This document shows positions 15,059 through 27,520 of a DNA stretch of 64,000 nucleotides, in pieces; position 1 is the first letter of the stretch; each line of letters opens with the position of its first letter. Under the pieces are notes generated by a model, which saw nothing but the letters and a program-made list of their open reading frames with translations, was not told the DNA's origin and searched no databases. This stretch comes from Candidatus Altimarinota bacterium (GTDB lineage Bacteria; Patescibacteriota; Gracilibacteria; BD1-5; UBA6164): contig JAQTOS010000001.1 of the NCBI GenBank assembly GCA_028713225.1, positions 1-64,000 of the forward strand, given 5' to 3'. Both the position numbers and the translations under genes were made by a program.

Positions 15059-15173
15059 AGTTTACAAAAAAAGATTAGAAAATAAAAATAAATTTGTATT
15101 GCGAGGACAATTTAATAAAATAATAAAAAAACACAAATGATTTTTTAACATTTTTTTAACAATTTGCAGCAAT

Positions 15174-15764
15174 ATGATTCCAAAGCCAAAAAACGAGCTT
15201 GACAATAATGTTAAAATATTGTCAAAAACTGCCTTTACTTTAATAGAAATTTTAGTAGTCATAGCAATGATTTGAATACTTCTAATTTGATTATCAAAAA
15301 TAGACTTATCAAAATGACAAAATCAACAAAAATCTCTAGCTTTTGCTAATAAAATTCAAGTACCTATAGAAACAACTATTACAAATGCTTTAATTGGAAA
15401 ATGAGTATGAACAAATCTAACAGTTCCTAATTCTTGGAAAATAGAAGTTTCAAAATCTGCAATTACTAACTGATGAACTTGAATTCTAAATATTTACTAT
15501 AATACTTGATGAACAGATATCTTAAGTACATCTATAAAAGCTGAAAAGTTTTATGAAATAAGTAAAATAGAATGTCTTGATTTAAGTTGAACTACAACTG
15601 ATACTTTCAATACTTGAACTTGAATTATTTCTATTAGTTGAAGCCAATTATCAACAAATTGTAGTGATCAATGAAAAATAATAAAAATATACACTAGATA
15701 TAAAAATACATTTTCTCATACGATAACTATTAATTCTGTTAATTGAATAATAGAAAAGGACTAA
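15174..15764 (+). CDS. Type II/IV pseudopilin
   Basis: 196 aa. A leader of about 20 residues precedes SKTAFTLIEILVVIAMIGILL, a prepilin cleavage motif with Ala at -1, Glu at +5 and a membrane helix. The head domain is Gly (TGA), Thr and Ser rich with two Cys (IECLDLSG, STNCSDQGK) that could bridge. The longer leader than in other prepilins here is unusual; a downstream start is not available before the motif. It is divergent from the LPKTG surface gene and ends before a terminator. Confidence 0.8.
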
Positions 15765-17810: not shown

Positions 17811-19625
17811 ATGCAAATTAACTCTAACGATATAAGACACAAATTTTTAGAATTTTTTAAAACAAAAAACCACGCAATAATCCCTTCAGCTTCAGTTGTC
17901 CCTGAAAATGACCCAACAGTTTTATTCAATACTGCAGGTATGCAACCTCTTGTTCCATACCTACTTGGAGAAACTCATCCTCTTGGGAAAAGATTGGCAA
18001 ATTATCAAAAATGTATCAGAACTGGTGACATTGATGATGTTTGAGACAATACTCACTTAACATTTTTTGAAATGCTTGGTAATTGGTCACTTGGTGATTA
18101 TTTTAAAGCTGAATCAATCGCTTGGTCATACGAATTTTTAACTTCAAAAGATTGGTTAGGAATAGACCCAAGAAAAATAGCTGTAACAGTATTTGAATGA
18201 GATAAAGATGCTCCAAAAGATGAAGAATCAGCAGAGCTTTGGAGAGCTCAAGGAGTTACAAATATTTCATATTTAGCAAAAGAAGATAATTGGTGGGGCC
18301 CAGCAGGTTTAACTGGACCTTGTGGACCTGATACTGAAATTTTTTATTGGGTTTGAAAAGAAGAATTTCCAACCGTTTGAAGTACTGTAGGAAATGATGA
18401 CAAAAACTGGATGGAAATCTGGAATAATGTATTTATGGAATACATCAAAACTGCCGAATGAACTTTCGAAAAAGCTGCTCAACAAAATGTAGATACAGGA
18501 ATGGGACTAGAAAGAATAACTAGAACTCTGACTTGAACTCCTTCAGTTTATGAATCTGATGTTTTTGCTGATATTATTGCAGAAATAGAAAAAACTTTAT
18601 GAGTTACTTATAATGACGATACAAGAAAATCAATAAGAATAATTGCTGACCACTCAAGAACTGCGACTATGATGCTATCAGACGGTATCAGACCATCTAA
18701 TGTTGACCAAGGATATATTTTGAGAAGACTTATCAGAAGAGCTGTAAGAGAAGGATACAAACTAGGTACTTCTTGAGCTTTCATGACTCCAATTATTTGA
18801 AAAGTAATAGAGAAATTTGAAGAAATTTACGAATCAGTAAAAATAAACAAACTTGAAATTATTACTGCCCTAGAAAAAGAAGAAAAACAATTTTCAAGCA
18901 CTTTAGAAAATTGATTAAAAGAATTTGATAAATTAATGTTTGGTTTCAAAATAGCTTTTGAAAGAACAGGACAAATTGTTGATACAATTTCTTGAGACAA
19001 AGCTTTTAAACTTTATGATACTTATGGTTTCCCTATTGAAATGACTGTAGAACTTGCGACTGAAAAAGGTTTAAAAGTTGATACTGATGGATTTAATGAT
19101 GCATTTAAAAAACATCAAGAATTGTCTCGTGCTTGAGCTGAACAAAAATTCAAATGAGGTTTAGCTGATGACTCAGAAATAGTAACAGCTCTTCACTCTG
19201 CAACTCATTTGATGCTAGCAGGTCTTAGAAAATATTTAGGAGAACATGTTCATCAAGCTGGATCAAATATCACAGCTGAAAGACTTAGGTTTGATTTCAC
19301 AAATGATGGAAAAGTAGATGCTGAAATTCTTAAAAAAGTAGAAGATTTCGTAAATGAGGCTATTTCAAAAGATATACTTGTTGATTTGAAAAATATGCCA
19401 AAAGATGAAGCAAAAGCTGCTTGAGTAGAAGGAAGTTTTTGGGAAAAATATCCTGATACAGTAAAAGTTTATACTTTTGCTGATAAAGAATGAAATGTTT
19501 ATTCTAAAGAACTTTGTGGATGACCTCATGTTGAGAGAACTGGAACAATCTGAAAATTTAAAATACAAAAAGAAGAAGCTTCTAGCTCTGGAGTAAGAAG
19601 AATAAAAGCAGTTTTAGAAAAATAA
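17811..19625 (+). CDS. alaS: Alanyl-tRNA synthetase, short form without C-Ala domain
   Basis: 604 aa against about 870 in most bacteria. The class II core (1-360) is complete: [52 protein letters not shown] and the helical domain [13 protein letters not shown]. The editing domain follows with LHSATHLML (HxxxH-type), LCGGPHVERTG (Cys and second His) and VRRIKAV near the end. The C-terminal oligomerisation/tRNA-elbow domain is missing; short AlaRS forms are known in reduced genomes. It charges tRNA-Ala and edits mischarged Ser/Gly. The many TGA glycines include CGGPHV. It ends before a terminator. Confidence 0.93.
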
Positions 19626-19639
19626 TTTTAAAAAAATAA

Positions 19640-19673
19640 TTAAAAATCTAGATAATTTCTAGATTTTTAATTT
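19640..19673 (+). terminator. Intrinsic terminator after alaS
   Basis: TAAAAATCTAGA pairs with TCTAGATTTTTA across a five-base loop, followed by T-rich sequence. Confidence 0.8.
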
Positions 19674-19698: not shown

Positions 19699-20796
19699 AT
19701 GAATAAAGATATTTTCCAAAATTTACTGAAAATTGATCGCGACTTAATTAATGCTGATACAAAATTAAGTATTTTAAAGCATTTTACTCCAATAAATATA
19801 GAAGAAGAAAAAAAGAAATTTATAGATTCAAAATGAACTTATATTCCCAAGTTTAAATATAAAAAACTAAATATTAATTTAAATGAAGTATATGAAAAAG
19901 TTTCTGCAATAAAAATTCCAAGATCTGATTTATCATGAATTTATAAAAGAAAAAAAGAAGAAATTTTAAACGAAATAATGCTTTTAAAGGCCTTTGAAAA
20001 GCAAGATATAAAATGATTGAATAAATATTGCAAACATCTTTACTGAAAAGTTAATGCAAAAAATCTAGAATATTCTAATAATATATTATCTCAAAAAAAA
20101 GATATATATAGAGAAACTGATTTTTTGAGTTTCAATGACTTAGAAAATATAGTAGAAGAATATAATAAAAAATATGATATAAATCTAAAACTAAAAGAAG
20201 CAAATATCGTTTCTAGATTTACAATAATATTTAATGATGTTTTACTCGTAAAATATTGATGTTTAGTTGGTAAAAAGGAAATAAAATCAGTTATAGCTCA
20301 TGAAATAGAATGACATCACCTAAGAAGAGAAAACGCAAAAAATCATAAATTAAAAATATTTTACTATTGAACAGCCTGATATGTAGATACTGAAGAGTGA
20401 ATTGCTACATATAATCAAAATAAATTTATTGACACAAAGGATGAAAAGTATTATTTTAATGCTGAGAGATATTATTTCATAAATTTTATGCTTAATAATA
20501 CTTACTCTAAAACTCTAAAAGAACTAAAAAAATATTATAATGATGATTATTCTAAGATATTTGATAATATTCTTAGGCTTAAAAGATGACTTAAAGATAT
20601 AAGTCAGAATTATTGTTATACAAAGGATTTAATTTATATAAATTGATACCTTGAACTTCTAGATTTTATAGATAATTGATGAGATATAAAAGAATTGTAT
20701 TTCTGAAAAATATGAGTAAAAGATTTGGAAGAAATTAAAAATTCTAAATTGGTAAAAATAGACCTGAGTAAACTAAAAATTCCGCTATTTTATTAA
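19699..20796 (+). CDS. DUF1704-type metallopeptidase (QEGLA family), paralogue 1
   Basis: 365 aa. The zinc motif HEIEGHHLRRENAKNH (His201, Glu202, His205/206) and the downstream DTEEGIA (Glu232-233) fit the DUF1704 family, whose bacterial members are annotated as flavohemoglobin-expression-modulating QEGLA proteins and whose animal relatives (MATCAP) are tyrosine carboxypeptidases. It is somewhat short for the family. It starts an operon with an ATP-grasp ligase (13 bp later) and an N-formylglutamate-amidohydrolase-like protein (2 bp after that), a gene set that recurs in other bacteria. The likely job is removing a C-terminal residue from a peptide or protein; the substrate is unknown. Confidence 0.75.
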
Positions 20797-20809
20797 AAAT
20801 AAAAAAAAC

Positions 20810-22237
20810 ATGAAAATAAATAATATTGATGATGTGAAAGCACTTTTAAGTCAAACTGATAGAAAAATATTTTGAATCTGAATAACAGCATATATGAGAG
20901 TATTACCTGCTTTATTTTTATGAAAAAACTTTGAGATTTTATGTTATAAAAACAGTATAGATAATGAAATTTTAAGAAAAATTACAAAAGTTCATTCTCT
21001 TCAAGAGAACTGAGAAGAAATTCAAAAATTATCTACAGCTGATATTCTTAACTCAAATTATGTAAAAAATCTTTTCACTCAAGAAAAAGAAATAAATTTA
21101 CAAGTTTATAAAACTACTCCTGAAATAGAAGATTTTGCAGTAAGAAATTGATATAATATCATTTGAAATAGTGTAGAAAATAGAGATAGGTATGAAAATA
21201 AAAAAGAATTTAGAGAAATTTTGGCTTCTATTTGAGTTGAAACTATATCTTGAGAAAATATGAATTATGATGATTTTATGGTAAAAAATTATGATTTTTT
21301 TAGTCAAAAATACTGAAATAAAATAGTTATACAATTGCCAGATATAACTATTTGATGAGGACTTTGAACTATATTTATAAATTCAAATGAAGACTTCATA
21401 AAATTCAAGGAAAAAATCGCAAAACAAAGCTATAAAAATACTAAGATAAATTCTTTAAATGTAACAAAATTTATAACTTGAATAAGTTCGAGTATAACTT
21501 GATGTGCTACAAAATTCTGAACACTAAGTACAAAAATACAAACTCAAGTTATAGATATTCCAGAAGTTATCAGCTTAAAAAAATGAAATTGAGTATTTTG
21601 CTGACATGATTGGTCTTTTAAAAAATATAGTGATACTGTAAATAAAAAAGCTTCAGAAATGATAGAAAAAATCTGAAATTTTATGTATCAAAACTGATAT
21701 AAATGAATTTTTGGATTGGATTTGATAGTTAATGAAGAAGAAGAACAAGTCTATATAGTTGAATGTAATTCAAGATATACTTGAGCTTTCCCTATGATTT
21801 CATTTATAGATTTGAAAAACTCTATAATTCCAATGGATGCTTTTCATATTATGGAATTTTTATGAATTGACTATGAAATAGATTTTGATAAGATAAATTC
21901 AAGTTATAAATATGATAAAAGCTGAAGTCATATAATTCTTTCAAACAAAAATGATGATGAAATTACTATAAAAAAAGACTTAATCCCTTGAGTATATAGC
22001 TTCACTTGAACTGAAATATCATATTTAAGAGAATGAATTTGATATAGCGATATCAATTCAGAAAATGAATTTATAATAATTGATTGAAACCCAAGTTCTG
22101 GAGAAAAAATAAGATGAGCTTGAGAATTATCTAGATTTTGTCATCTATTATTCCCTTTTTCTATCATAGAAAATGAAAATACTTTAAATGAAAAAGCCAA
22201 AACTATAATAAATATTATTTATAAACAATATACTTAA
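20810..22237 (+). CDS. ATP-grasp ligase in the DUF1704 operon
   Basis: 475 aa. The ATP-grasp fold is indicated by IQLPDITIGGGLGTIFI (nucleotide-binding strand and Gly-rich loop), GIFGLDLIVNEEEEQVYIVECNSRYTG (Mg-binding Glu and the ExN motif) near residues 300-330. Members form amide or peptide bonds by acyl-phosphate chemistry. Known related operons pair such ligases with DUF1704 peptidases and formylglutamate-amidohydrolase-like proteins. In that set the ligase plausibly adds an amino acid that the peptidase can remove, which is inferred. Several TGA glycines lie in the Gly-rich loop. Confidence 0.75.
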
Positions 22238-22239
22238 AT

Positions 22240-23022
22240 ATGAAAAATATACTATTTAGTTATCCTCATTCTTCTTCTAATATTCCACAGTGATTAGAAA
22301 ATAAATTAAATGTTTCAAAAGAAGATTTAATTATAACTATGGATTTTTGAACTGAAAAATTCTTTTCTGGTCTAGATTCACAAAAACTTTTTGCAGAAGT
22401 CCACTTACTTTTTTGAAACTTAAATAGAAATATTTCTGGTTATCATTTATTTACATGAGAAAAATATAATACTGCGATGTCACTATTTCCTTTAAATCTT
22501 CCTCATAATTGAAAAAATATTTATAAAGAAGGTGAAGAATTAAGTGAAGCAGAAAAATTGGAAATTGCAGAAAAATATTATATTCCATATTATAAAAAAA
22601 TAAGTGAATTTATACTTTCTTGAAAAATAGACCTTTTAATTGATGTGCATTCTTGTGACCCTGTTGCGTCAGGAAATCAAGCTTGAAATTGAGAAAGAGC
22701 TGATATAATTTTATGAAATCGGTGAGATGAAAACTGAAACATAAAAAATTGAAGAGACTATGTTACTTTCAGTCCTGAACTTATTCAAAAATTGAGAAAT
22801 ATGCTTGAAAAACATTGATTAAAGGTTGCTATAAATACACCTTTCTTATGATGAAATATAACTCAACAATTTTGATATAGTGAATGAATTGATTGAAAAA
22901 TTCCAACTCTTCAAATAGAAATCAATAAAAAATTGTATATGGAAGATGATTTATTAAAAGTAGATGAAACTAAATTTGATAATATTAATAATATATTAAG
23001 TGAAAGTATAAAAAGTTTATAA
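22240..23022 (+). CDS. N-formylglutamate amidohydrolase-like protein
   Basis: 260 aa. The family pattern is clear: an N-terminal YPHSSSNIPQGLE (His for metal), DFGTEKFF, LIDVHSCDP (metal-binding Asp/His), then GNRGDENG and NTPFLGGNITQQFGYSEG, with a Glu near TLQIEINKKLY. Family enzymes are zinc amidohydrolases cleaving N-formylglutamate. Because no histidine-degradation genes are nearby and the gene overlaps an ATP-grasp/DUF1704 operon, another amide substrate is more likely. A terminator follows, closing the three-gene unit. Confidence 0.8.
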
Positions 23023-23036
23023 TTTTTGCTTTAAAA

Positions 23037-23071
23037 TAAGCTATATGATAAAATAAGGTCATATAGCTTTT
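23037..23071 (+). terminator. Terminator of the DUF1704/ATP-grasp operon
   Basis: AAGCTATATGA pairs with TCATATAGCTT, followed by TT and A-rich sequence; the short T tract makes readthrough into the second DUF1704 gene possible. Confidence 0.6.
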
Positions 23072-23084
23072 AAAATAATGAAAA

Positions 23085-24533
23085 ATGTCTAATTTTATAA
23101 AAATTACCACTCAAATCCAAGAAATAAAAAAAGATTTCACTACTCCTCTATGAGCAATGGCAAAATATAGCAAATGAGAATGAGTATTTATAAATGAAGA
23201 TTTTTTCTGAAAAGACAAAAAAGAAATAACAGATACAGATATAGCCGAATCTTTGCTAAAAATAGAAAAAGAATTAGAAAATATTAAGAAATTAAAACTT
23301 AGTTTGAAAGATGATGATTTAAGCCCCGTAGAAAAAAAATTTGTACTTAATTCTCTGAATATTGCTTGACTAAAATTTATAATGTTTAAATCAAGTGTAT
23401 ATCTAGAAGCCGAAAAAGCTGGCTATAAATTAAGTATAGAAGATAGAGGAAAATATTTACAAACTACAAATAGACTTCAAAATATATTTTATTGACCAGA
23501 AATCAGTGAAAATCCTGAAGAATCTGCTCAAATAATATCTTCTCTGCAAGATTTGCTTGATAAAAATACTGATAAAATAAGAAGTGAAGAAGCTGAAACT
23601 CTTCAAAATTTCATAGATAGTTTCGGAATTCCAAAAATAGAATTAAAAGAGAATAAAGACAAAAATAATTTTAAAGGTAGATTTATTTCAAAAGAAAAAT
23701 TCAAACAAGTTTTTACTATGGTTTTGGATTTATATACCCTGGATGGATGGGAAATATCTATAGAAAATGTTGATAATTTTTCAGTAAAAAAAGAGAAAAA
23801 ACAAATAGTTTGTCCTGAATCTAAATTAGAGACAACTCATCTAAAAAGAGTTTTTCAGCTTATGGATCACGAAGTGTGAGTACATTGAAATAAGTGATAT
23901 AATACAAATAAAACGACAAAATCAACTTGAGAATGATATACAGAATGAGAAGAATGATTTGCCACAATGACAGAATTACTTTTTGATAATACAATAGATG
24001 AAATTACTGTTTTGCCAACTATTCATCACATTACTACTTTTATAGCTGAAAATAGAAATTGAGAGGAAACAAGAAAAATTCTGGAAATTTATTTCAAATT
24101 AACTTGATTAGGTGAAGAAAAAGCCCAAAAAGAAGCACTTGATAGAATGCTTAGAGTAAAAAGATTTGTTAGTTTAAACGAAATTTGAGCAAATAGAAAA
24201 GATGTATCATATACTAGATGACAAAGCCAAATTGTAGACTTTTTTCAAAAAGCTAGTGATGAAACAAGAAAAGAATTTTTAAAAGATTTTTATTATTCAA
24301 AACTTGCTTTTGAAGATATTTGACTCGTAAAAGAATTCAGAGAAAGTTTAGCAGTAGATGAAAGCGAGCTTAGATATCCACTTTGGGTTTGAAAAATCTT
24401 ATATAAAAAATTATCTGGTGAAAAAATATTTTTAAAATCCTTACAAGAAGAAGATTTTAGGTTCAAAAATATAGAAAAACTTGAATTTAGTACAAAAAGA
24501 AAAATAATTAATATTTTAAATTTATTAAAATAA
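23085..24533 (+). CDS. DUF1704-type metallopeptidase, paralogue 2
   Basis: 482 aa. The zinc motif is HEVGVH (residues 262-267) followed by a GN where paralogue 1 has LRR, and by TEGEEGFA (Glu289-290), the QEGLA-type element. The N-terminal 200 residues are helical, and a family-like FKGRFISKEKFKQVFTMVLDLY precedes the active site. Two paralogues beside one ligase and one amidohydrolase suggest either two substrates or division of labour. The start is the ATG at 23085, since the ATG at 23078 meets TAA after four codons. Confidence 0.72.
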
Positions 24534-24540
24534 AAATCTC

Positions 24541-24858
24541 ATGAAAAAAATACCTGAATTTTTGACTTATTTTCTAGAAGATTGTTTATGATGAGAGCAA
24601 AGTTTTTCTGTAAAATCAATGTTTTCTGGCTACTGAATCTATAAATACTGAAAAATTTTTGCGATTTACCGAATGAGCGAATTATATTTCAAAGTTTGAA
24701 AAAATAACCTAGAAGATTACCAAAAACATAATTCAAAGATTTTTGAATATCAAAGAAAATGAAAAGCTGCACATATTTCATATTATACTCTACCTGAAGA
24801 AATTTTAGAAAACAGAGAAGAATTAAATATTTGGATTAATAAAAGTTTAGAGGTTTAA
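24541..24858 (+). CDS. TfoX N-terminal-domain protein
   Basis: 105 aa. MFSGYGIYKYGKIFAIYRMSELYFKVGK is the typical TfoX-N core, followed by FEYQRKGKAAHISYYTLPEEILEN. TfoX/Sxy regulates competence in Gammaproteobacteria, but stand-alone TfoX-N proteins occur widely with unknown roles. It starts 7 bp after the second DUF1704 gene. Given comEC and pilT in the window, a competence link is possible but not shown. Confidence 0.8.
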
Positions 24859-26056: not shown

Positions 26057-26163
26057 AATGTCAAGAAACTAAAATTTGCAATAAAAAATAAATGACTAAA
26101 ATTAGCTTTATAGTCATTTATTTTTTACTTTCATTTCATGAACTTACACAAAACAAAAGCCTT
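26055..26163. repeat. 109-bp block, copy 1, identical to 50282-50390
   Basis: The block contains the terminator of ruvA, the leader and the first codons of the pilin-adhesin. Every base matches the copy at 50282-50390; the flanking DNA then diverges upstream and stays only similar in the coding part. It marks a duplication or gene conversion. Confidence 0.9.
26086..26126 (+). terminator. Intrinsic terminator of ruvA inside the repeat
   Basis: AAATAAATGACTA pairs with TAGTCATTTATTT, followed by TTTTTT, in the gap between ruvA and the pilin gene. Confidence 0.8.
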
Positions 26164-27520
26164 CACATTAGTGGAGTTAATCATAGTAATTACTATTTTA
26201 GCAATATTAGCTACTATTGGTTTTATGTCATATCAATCATATACTTGAGATGCTAGAGATTCTTCAAGAATAACCAGTCTAAAAACAGTGTATGATTGAT
26301 TAACAATCTCTTATGTAAAAAAACAAACATATCCAATACCAGATGACTATATAGATATTGTTTGAGTATCAAAACAATGATATGTTTGAGATACAGTTAC
26401 AAAATCAATCAGATGAGATTCATTTAAAGATCCAAAAGATAATACTAGATATTTGTATAGTCTTGATTATACAGGAAAGAAAATAGAATTATCAGGTTTT
26501 CTAGAGAATAAGAATAAAATACTACTATCACAAAATAATAGTCTATTTGTGAATCAAGCATTTGCTTGAAATATAGATTATACAAGTAGATATATCTATA
26601 CTATTTGAAATAATGTATGAATTCTTTTAAATTCAACAACAAATGCTCCAGTAAATGAAACTATTTCTACTTGAAGTATAGATTTAACAACAAATACAGG
26701 AAGCTATACTGTGATATTTGCAGATACAGGGGCTATTTCATGAAGTGGTCAAACTCTATTAACAAATATTTCATCTATCCAAAATGCATCTACATCTTGA
26801 ACATCAGAAACATCAAATATACCTAGTACTCCAACAACACAAACGTATACTTGTACATGATTACCAACAAATGCATCATGGAATATAGTATCAAGTTATA
26901 CGCAAACATGGGATTGAACATCTTGGAGTCCTGCTAATAGTACAGCAACTTACAATACAACAGCAAGTACAACATCTTGTAATTATACTTGTAATACTTG
27001 ATATACTTGGGATAATACTAATTGTTATAAGTTAGCTTGTACAAGTTGAACTTATAATTCTTCTACTAATAAATGTGATACAACAATAAGCACCACTTGT
27101 AATTATACTGCAACTTCAACAAATTGATTAACTTGGGATAATTGTGAAGGTTGAAAATGAAATCGGTCTACATTATCTACATATTGTTCTTCTAAATGAA
27201 TGAGGTTAGCAAAATTATCTGAAGTTATTCCATCATGATGAGTTGTTCCATCTTGTTCATGACCAACTTGGACTAGTACAATAGGTATATATTTTTATGA
27301 TTACAGGCAATGGAATTGAAGTACAATAATTTATACAAATCGAACAACTGATATAGTAAATGTGTATTGAAGATGTGTTGTTGATGCAACGTCTTATTCT
27401 TGTCCATCATGATGAACATTATCTTGAACAACTTGTTTGAATACTTGTAGTACGACTACATCTGTATCTCCAGCTTGTACTACGCCAGTATTGAATTGAT
27501 GAATACGGAAATGTTATTAA
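26138..27520 (+). CDS. Pilin-adhesin 1: type IV prepilin with Cys/Thr-rich region and lectin-like tail
   Basis: 460 aa. Prepilin start MNLHKTKAFTLVELIIV (Ala at -1), membrane helix and a head (about 30-215) closely similar to the protein at 50365. Then a Ser/Thr-rich linker and repeats of the form CNYTCNTGYTWDNTNC. The last 115 residues (CSSKGMRLAKLSEV, PTWTSTIGIYFYDYRQW, RCVVD) resemble the DUF1566/Lcl-C or FSMD type of tail, known in adhesins. It is probably a tip or minor pilin that binds a surface. Cys-rich, so disulfides are expected outside the cell. TGG Trp and TGA Gly are both frequent, showing they differ in meaning. Confidence 0.8.

Follow-up and report, generated by a model that had tools for sequence, protein, structure and literature searches.

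A predicted ATP-grasp ligase and amide-hydrolase operon of Gracilibacteria containing an apparently re-split MATCAP-type peptidase

Only in 2022-2023 were MATCAP proteins identified as carboxypeptidases that act on tubulin tails. ATP-grasp ligases and peptidases, in a general proposal reportedly made by Iyer et al. in 2009, together form tagging or peptide systems. A locus that unites the two families lies on a contig of the Candidatus Altimarinota (Gracilibacteria) assembly GCA_028713225.1, of which the first 64,000 nucleotides (the window) were analysed here. Three closely spaced genes of its forward strand encode a MATCAP/DUF1704 peptidase (PEP), an ATP-grasp carboxylate-amine ligase (GRASP) and a hydrolase of the N-formylglutamate-amidohydrolase type (FGAH), all assigned by prediction. 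The explanation favoured here, held tentatively and at slightly under even probability, is that PEP-GRASP-FGAH constitutes a compact amide-ligase/amide-hydrolase module that would build and trim a short acidic, probably glutamate-rich, chain.

The rlo system of Pseudomonas is comprised of the retropepsin RloA, the seven-transmembrane (7TM) inactive transglutaminase RloB and the ATP-grasp protein RloC (PMC12239564). The same component families are found in bacteria of the candidate phyla radiation (CPR), in loci bearing 7TM_transglut, an ATPgrasp_ST ligase joined to a retropepsin, and GRASP, and also at a second locus of the host genome (contig C10, L034). The CPR loci differ from rlo in that ligase and retropepsin share a single polypeptide, in that GRASP and frequently MATCAP join them, and in that fusions which include MATCAP have lost the retropepsin motif; the window trio itself has no retropepsin, 7TM inactive transglutaminase or RloC-type ATP-grasp and thus falls outside the rlo system. 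Human TMCP1 (MATCAP1; KIAA0895L) and TMCP2 shorten polyglutamate chains, and the substrates of characterised MATCAPs are protein tails (PMC10499314). PEP is homologous to these human enzymes by sequence and fold, sharing the conserved HExxxH and EEG motifs and the RxKRGxxDxS/KD..Y..G region, but it is bacterial and is encoded in an operon with a ligase. Polyglutamylation of S6 by RimK and RimB likewise sets an ATP-grasp writer against a protease eraser, although the window ligase and protease belong to other families and the host S6 has no acidic end, which places the trio outside this system as well. A rhizobial cluster of QEGLA (TIGR02421), FGAH and glutathione synthase genes (L166, L167) brings together the same three functional classes; its ligase, in contrast, is an ATP-grasp of the glutathione synthase (GSH-S) type, its MATCAP protein of ~630 aa carries an N-terminal extension, and group II intron genes set FGAH apart from the rest in L166.

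The host genome of the window (1.24 Mb in 19 contigs, 97% complete) belongs to a lineage with an altered genetic code, as TGA specifies glycine in Gracilibacteria and SR1. The region is shattered under translation table 11, whereas four open reading frames are open under table 25, and this decoding is supported because the conserved G of the PEP metal-site motif EEG is itself encoded by TGA. Once TGA is read as glycine, the three genes and a MATCAP paralogue (PEP2) are found where the original prediction, made from the DNA alone, had placed them, and its family assignments also held (PF08014 for PEP and PEP2, ATP-grasp for GRASP and PF05013 for FGAH). PEP (19699-20796) is an unfused predicted metallocarboxypeptidase domain of 365 aa; GRASP (20810-22237; 31 TGA codons) follows after 13 bp and encodes a PRK06524-like protein of 475 aa; and FGAH (22240-23022; 18 TGA codons), of 260 aa, follows after another 2 bp. 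Upstream, the unit is bounded by a terminator-like hairpin in the gap from alaS to PEP (19638-19672; 15-bp stem, 5-nt loop, -14.7 kcal/mol; z-score -4.8), and a second, terminator-like though failing a strict terminator rule, lies 3' of FGAH at the downstream edge (23039-23068; 11-bp core stem, surrounding fold -14.6 kcal/mol; z-score -4.6); for each, 0 of 200 shuffles were equally stable. Since these hairpins flank the trio, the sequence suggests a transcription unit of three genes, with PEP2 as a separate neighbour. A simple promoter scan of the locus performed no better than on shuffles.

PEP scores 96 bits against PF08014 (cut-off 27; E 2.9e-27), matches human MATCAP1 by sequence (phmmer E 4e-10) and is not a TIGR02421 QEGLA equivalog (125.8 bits against a cut-off of 338.65). 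Its metal-binding and catalytic motifs, HEIEGH at position 201 and EEGIA at position 232, contribute residues H201, E202, H206, E233 and G234, each invariant in the alignment. The predicted structure (predicted local distance difference test, pLDDT, 87) is folded like human MATCAP, which accounts for the top five Foldseek matches (E 1.4e-9 to 5.7e-9, prob 1.00).

A MATCAP match is present in 103 of 147 related genomes, and in most of these relatives a ~800-aa protein carries the domain as its C-terminal third, with a PF14397 ATPgrasp_ST ligase at the N-terminus and, in the middle, a domain of retropepsin fold (hhalign probability 99.6). The MATCAP tree places PEP inside a 24-member clade (support 99/99), nearest to L039, L050 and L054 (93/90), and every other member of this clade is fused or, in one case (L045), cut by the end of its contig. 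Because the window copy nests within a fused clade, PEP is best read as a fission product that was split from its original ligase and is now positioned beside a different one.

The fused relatives display a further regularity in their central domain. All 39 complete fusions keep the ExN motif of the ligase and the HExxxH and EG motifs of MATCAP, but the retropepsin motif DTGA is kept in 0 of 39, compared to 28 of 28 unfused ATPgrasp_ST-retropepsin proteins with an alignable motif, counts that do not represent independent events, given the relatedness of the sequences and the double retrieval of some loci from different collections (e.g. L182 and L146). The only departures in the sample are three proteins labelled unfused that have no DTGA (L067, L083 and L090), and these are split fusions whose MATCAP part occupies the following frame. 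Where MATCAP is a gene of its own in an unfused locus (L146, L147, L148, L150 and L207), DTGA persists, and hence its decay is tied to fusion and not to the mere presence of MATCAP. An active retropepsin inside the fusions was consequently rejected, the fold being present and DTGA gone. A candidate 7TM partner encoded upstream of the family fusions (c2) was also set aside; it is FtsX, and its adjacency to the fusions may therefore be mere synteny.

Ligase-plus-eraser systems are already known, but the fusion of MATCAP to a ligase with a decayed retropepsin, and the re-splitting of that fusion, may be new; among the papers searched, none treats DUF1704 together with ATP-grasp. MATCAP genes are repeatedly found with ATP-grasp ligases, and where the two are fused the adjacent retropepsin has lost its catalytic motif. 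A bolder and rather doubtful extension is that the CPR fusions are single-chain writer-erasers for glutamate chains, in which MATCAP would have replaced the ancestral retropepsin eraser beside ATPgrasp_ST, with the window operon as a re-split version bearing a different ligase. The family that acts on tubulin tails in eukaryotes would thereby gain a bacterial setting.

GRASP displays the features of the ATP-grasp superfamily, namely a glycine-rich loop (GGGxGT, residues 182-187), a Lys (K131, invariant over 10 sequences) and the D and ExN metal ligands; G183, G184, G186 (at least 90%), T187, D304, E318, N320 and R322 are conserved over 39 sequences. It matches ATP-grasp_3 (E 1.4e-7), and its model (pLDDT 94.6) has the ATP-grasp fold of the biotin-carboxylase/PurK/PurD/PurT type. 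Biotin carboxylases are the top matches in a fold search, and GRASP matches NF005096 over its full length (E 1.4e-44), yet with only 152 bits against a cut-off of 684. The catalytic Glu of biotin carboxylase (E296 of the E. coli enzyme), eight residues past the ExNxR glutamate, aligns with A326 in GRASP and is not Glu across the family; GRASP was thus rejected as a biotin carboxylase.

GRASP has homologues (30-43% identical) in further CPR lineages, in Deltaproteobacteria/Thermodesulfobacteriota and in Aenigmatarchaeota, and more distant ones on rhizobial plasmids; viral relatives were looked for and none were found. Phylogenetically, the GRASP of the window clusters with a set from Falkowbacteria, Uhrbacteria and Buchananbacteria and with proteobacterial copies that include those of GRASP-FGAH pairs (87/87, moderate support). 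No strong homologue was found within the host's own family, and on this phylogenetic basis GRASP was likely acquired from outside it, perhaps together with FGAH. Beside the closest relatives (L172, L173) are found L-amino-acid-ligase-like and glutathionylspermidine-synthase-like ATP-grasps, and in L172 also a radical S-adenosylmethionine gene, a neighbourhood that is possibly a peptide-biosynthesis cluster.

FGAH scores 107 bits against the FGase family PF05013 (cut-off 28.9; E 2.7e-30), and residues H10, D35, N62, R63, H137, N199 and E227 are invariant in a seven-sequence alignment. Assignment as the N-formylglutamate deformylase HutG was rejected (52 bits against the TIGR02017 cut-off of 279). 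Loss of zinc- or ATP-binding residues was also looked for and none has occurred at the sequence level, the motifs of PEP, PEP2 and GRASP being intact.

The partnership of these families recurs well beyond the host. In the phylum sample, MATCAP is adjacent (within ~1.5 kb) in 7 of the 11 genomes with a strong GRASP; as MATCAP occurs in 86 of 380 genomes, the chance of this pairing is about 1e-16 (binomial, genomes treated as independent). Across 51 GTDB loci, GRASP follows an ATPgrasp_ST-retropepsin gene in about 21, mostly with 7TM_transglut ahead, has MATCAP adjoining or nearby in L182, L196, L204, L207 and L208, and is next to FGAH in L181, L185, L188 and L204; in three loci of Deltaproteobacteria GRASP and FGAH are immediate neighbours. 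The row in L204 presents 7TM, ligase-retropepsin, MATCAP, FGAH, GRASP and a second ATP-grasp consecutively. GRASP accompanies MATCAP, FGAH or the rlo-like genes (7TM-transglutaminase, ATPgrasp_ST, retropepsin) independently in other CPR lineages and in Deltaproteobacteria, and in rhizobia FGAH and MATCAP occur together with a glutathione-synthase-type ATP-grasp. Almost all MATCAP genes examined in CPR bacteria and rhizobia are fused to or beside an ATP-grasp ligase drawn from one of five families (ATPgrasp_ST, GRASP, RimK, ATP-grasp_4 and the GSH-S type), the exceptions being L082, L085 and L088, where no ligase was detected, and several PEP2-like genes (L036, L092).

In the favoured module, GRASP would be the writer: at the expense of ATP it would convert a carboxylate into an acyl phosphate and link this to the amine of an amino acid. 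PEP, as a MATCAP-type metallocarboxypeptidase, would be the eraser that takes off C-terminal residues singly, and FGAH, as a metal-dependent amidohydrolase, would cleave the last N-acyl-amino-acid amide or recycle the released conjugate. PEP would have originated as the eraser domain of an rlo-like fusion of ligase, decayed retropepsin and MATCAP, and, freed from its original ligase, would now act together with GRASP, whose partners in other lineages are of the same kinds. Glutamate-like chains are favoured because the retropepsins RimB and RloA cleave polyglutamate (PMC12239564) and human MATCAPs trim it also; that one ligase family occurs with either eraser suggests that both erasers may meet the same acidic product. 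The analysis itself establishes the gene content, the intact motifs, the folds, the apparent fission of PEP, the recurrence of ligase-eraser pairs and the retropepsin decay in the fusions; the glutamate-like chemistry, the common substrate and the order of steps are what we infer.

The original prediction had proposed a write-and-erase system, and its core, a ligase and hydrolases acting as one functional module, is supported by the recurrent pairing, the intact residues and the MATCAP fold. Its link to the removal of tyrosine, by comparison, found no evidence, the nearest functional anchors being acidic or polyglutamate chains, and the conserved trio that it implied was not recovered in close relatives. 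Should the favoured reading be true, acidic chains would be suggested as the substrate class for bacterial MATCAP relatives, complete ligase-eraser enzymes small enough for expression and assay would be at hand, and the original function of the human members of the family could be approached through bacteria.

Several observations weigh against this reading. The human enzyme TMCP1 removes Tyr, Ala, Glu and Gly ends about equally well (PMC10499314), and the MATCAP family therefore does not force a glutamate substrate. S6 was rejected as a target, since its C-terminus in the host genome, read by hand, is ..FVKLEK with no acidic tail. The PEP-GRASP-FGAH trio was seen in no other genome among the 147 relatives, and in a genome of the same genus neither MATCAP nor FGase gave a match and ATP-grasp only a weak one. 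Because close relatives are without the trio, it may be a recent accessory gain, and the earlier argument that retention in a reduced genome signals importance is unsupported. In addition, the GRASP-FGAH pair of Deltaproteobacteria comes after SBP_bac_5/oligo_HPY oligopeptide ATP-binding cassette (ABC) transporter genes, an L-amino-acid-ligase-like gene lies next to the closest GRASPs, and the product is therefore almost as likely to be a small molecule as a protein tag.

These last two neighbourhoods favour a different explanation, namely that the locus serves the metabolism of small peptides or N-acyl amino acids, with GRASP making a dipeptide or amide (as an osmolyte, a store or a signal), PEP and FGAH degrading or salvaging it, and no protein being tagged. 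This is a serious possibility, if one that we would not expect to prevail. It is consistent with the AAT-family gene that adjoins rhizobial GRASPs, or the Orn/Lys/Arg-decarboxylase-type gene near them, and with the induction of QEGLA (27-fold) and a numerically adjacent glutathione-synthase gene (38-fold) among the most induced genes of Photobacterium at low salinity (PMC10308900). Against it, the partners of GRASP in CPR bacteria are MATCAP, retropepsin and 7TM proteins and not transporters, and the characterised MATCAPs act on protein tails. Together with the failure of mutants in the rlo protease under hypo-osmotic stress (PMC12239564), the low-salinity induction hints at a role in osmotic physiology.

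It is improbable that the trio is merely what remains of an rlo-like locus, decaying or randomly gathered and now of little function. PEP without its former fused ligase, the same-genus genome without PEP and FGAH, and the confinement of the trio to this one genome within its family would all suit such a relic, but the catalytic motifs are intact, the frames open, the spacing tight and the unit flanked by hairpins, and random assembly would not select partners that co-occur elsewhere. Least probable, although annotation pipelines label GRASP relatives as biotin carboxylase and the fold search concurs, is that a biotin carboxylase, a deformylase of the HutG type and a general peptidase, as unrelated housekeeping genes, lie together by chance, given the low scores of GRASP and FGAH against those families, Ala326 in place of the catalytic Glu and the recurrence of the same partners across lineages.

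The favoured module of three genes leaves aside PEP2 (23085-24533; 19 TGA codons), a distant MATCAP paralogue of 482 aa with an N-terminal extension. PEP2 matches PF08014 over its C-terminal half only (E 3e-10; 40 bits, cut-off 27), keeps the metal motifs HEVGVH at position 262 and EEGFA at position 289, and is 26% identical to PEP over 203 columns (BLASTP E 4e-9). Its membership of the operon was considered and set aside, since it lies 62 bp from FGAH, behind the hairpin, and since neither PEP nor GRASP nor FGAH adjoins the close PEP2 orthologue of G022 (L071); it is probably its own transcription unit. PEP2-like genes directly follow the ATPgrasp_ST-MATCAP fusion in two family relatives, G027 and G038 (L050, L054), which is a possible link between PEP and PEP2. 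A third MATCAP gene of the host genome resides on contig C10 (G000, L034:3174-7058), where 7TM_transglut precedes a fusion of ATPgrasp_ST, decayed retropepsin (DFTKT replacing DTGA) and MATCAP that contains the sole ATPgrasp_ST of the genome. Elsewhere, L093 (G034, contig C29) presents three close-set MATCAP-like genes with an ATP-grasp gene nearby.

Among the genes around the operon, alaS (17811-19625) encodes just 604 aa; the protein ends beyond the editing-domain region and lacks the C-terminal extension that is customary. A TfoX_N-domain protein (PF04993, E 2e-22) is encoded at 24541-24858, 7 bp past PEP2, and two proteins that flank the operon, at 15099-15764 and 26138-27520, have type IV pilin-like N-termini (AFTLIEILVVIAMIG and AFTLVELIIVITILAILATIG).

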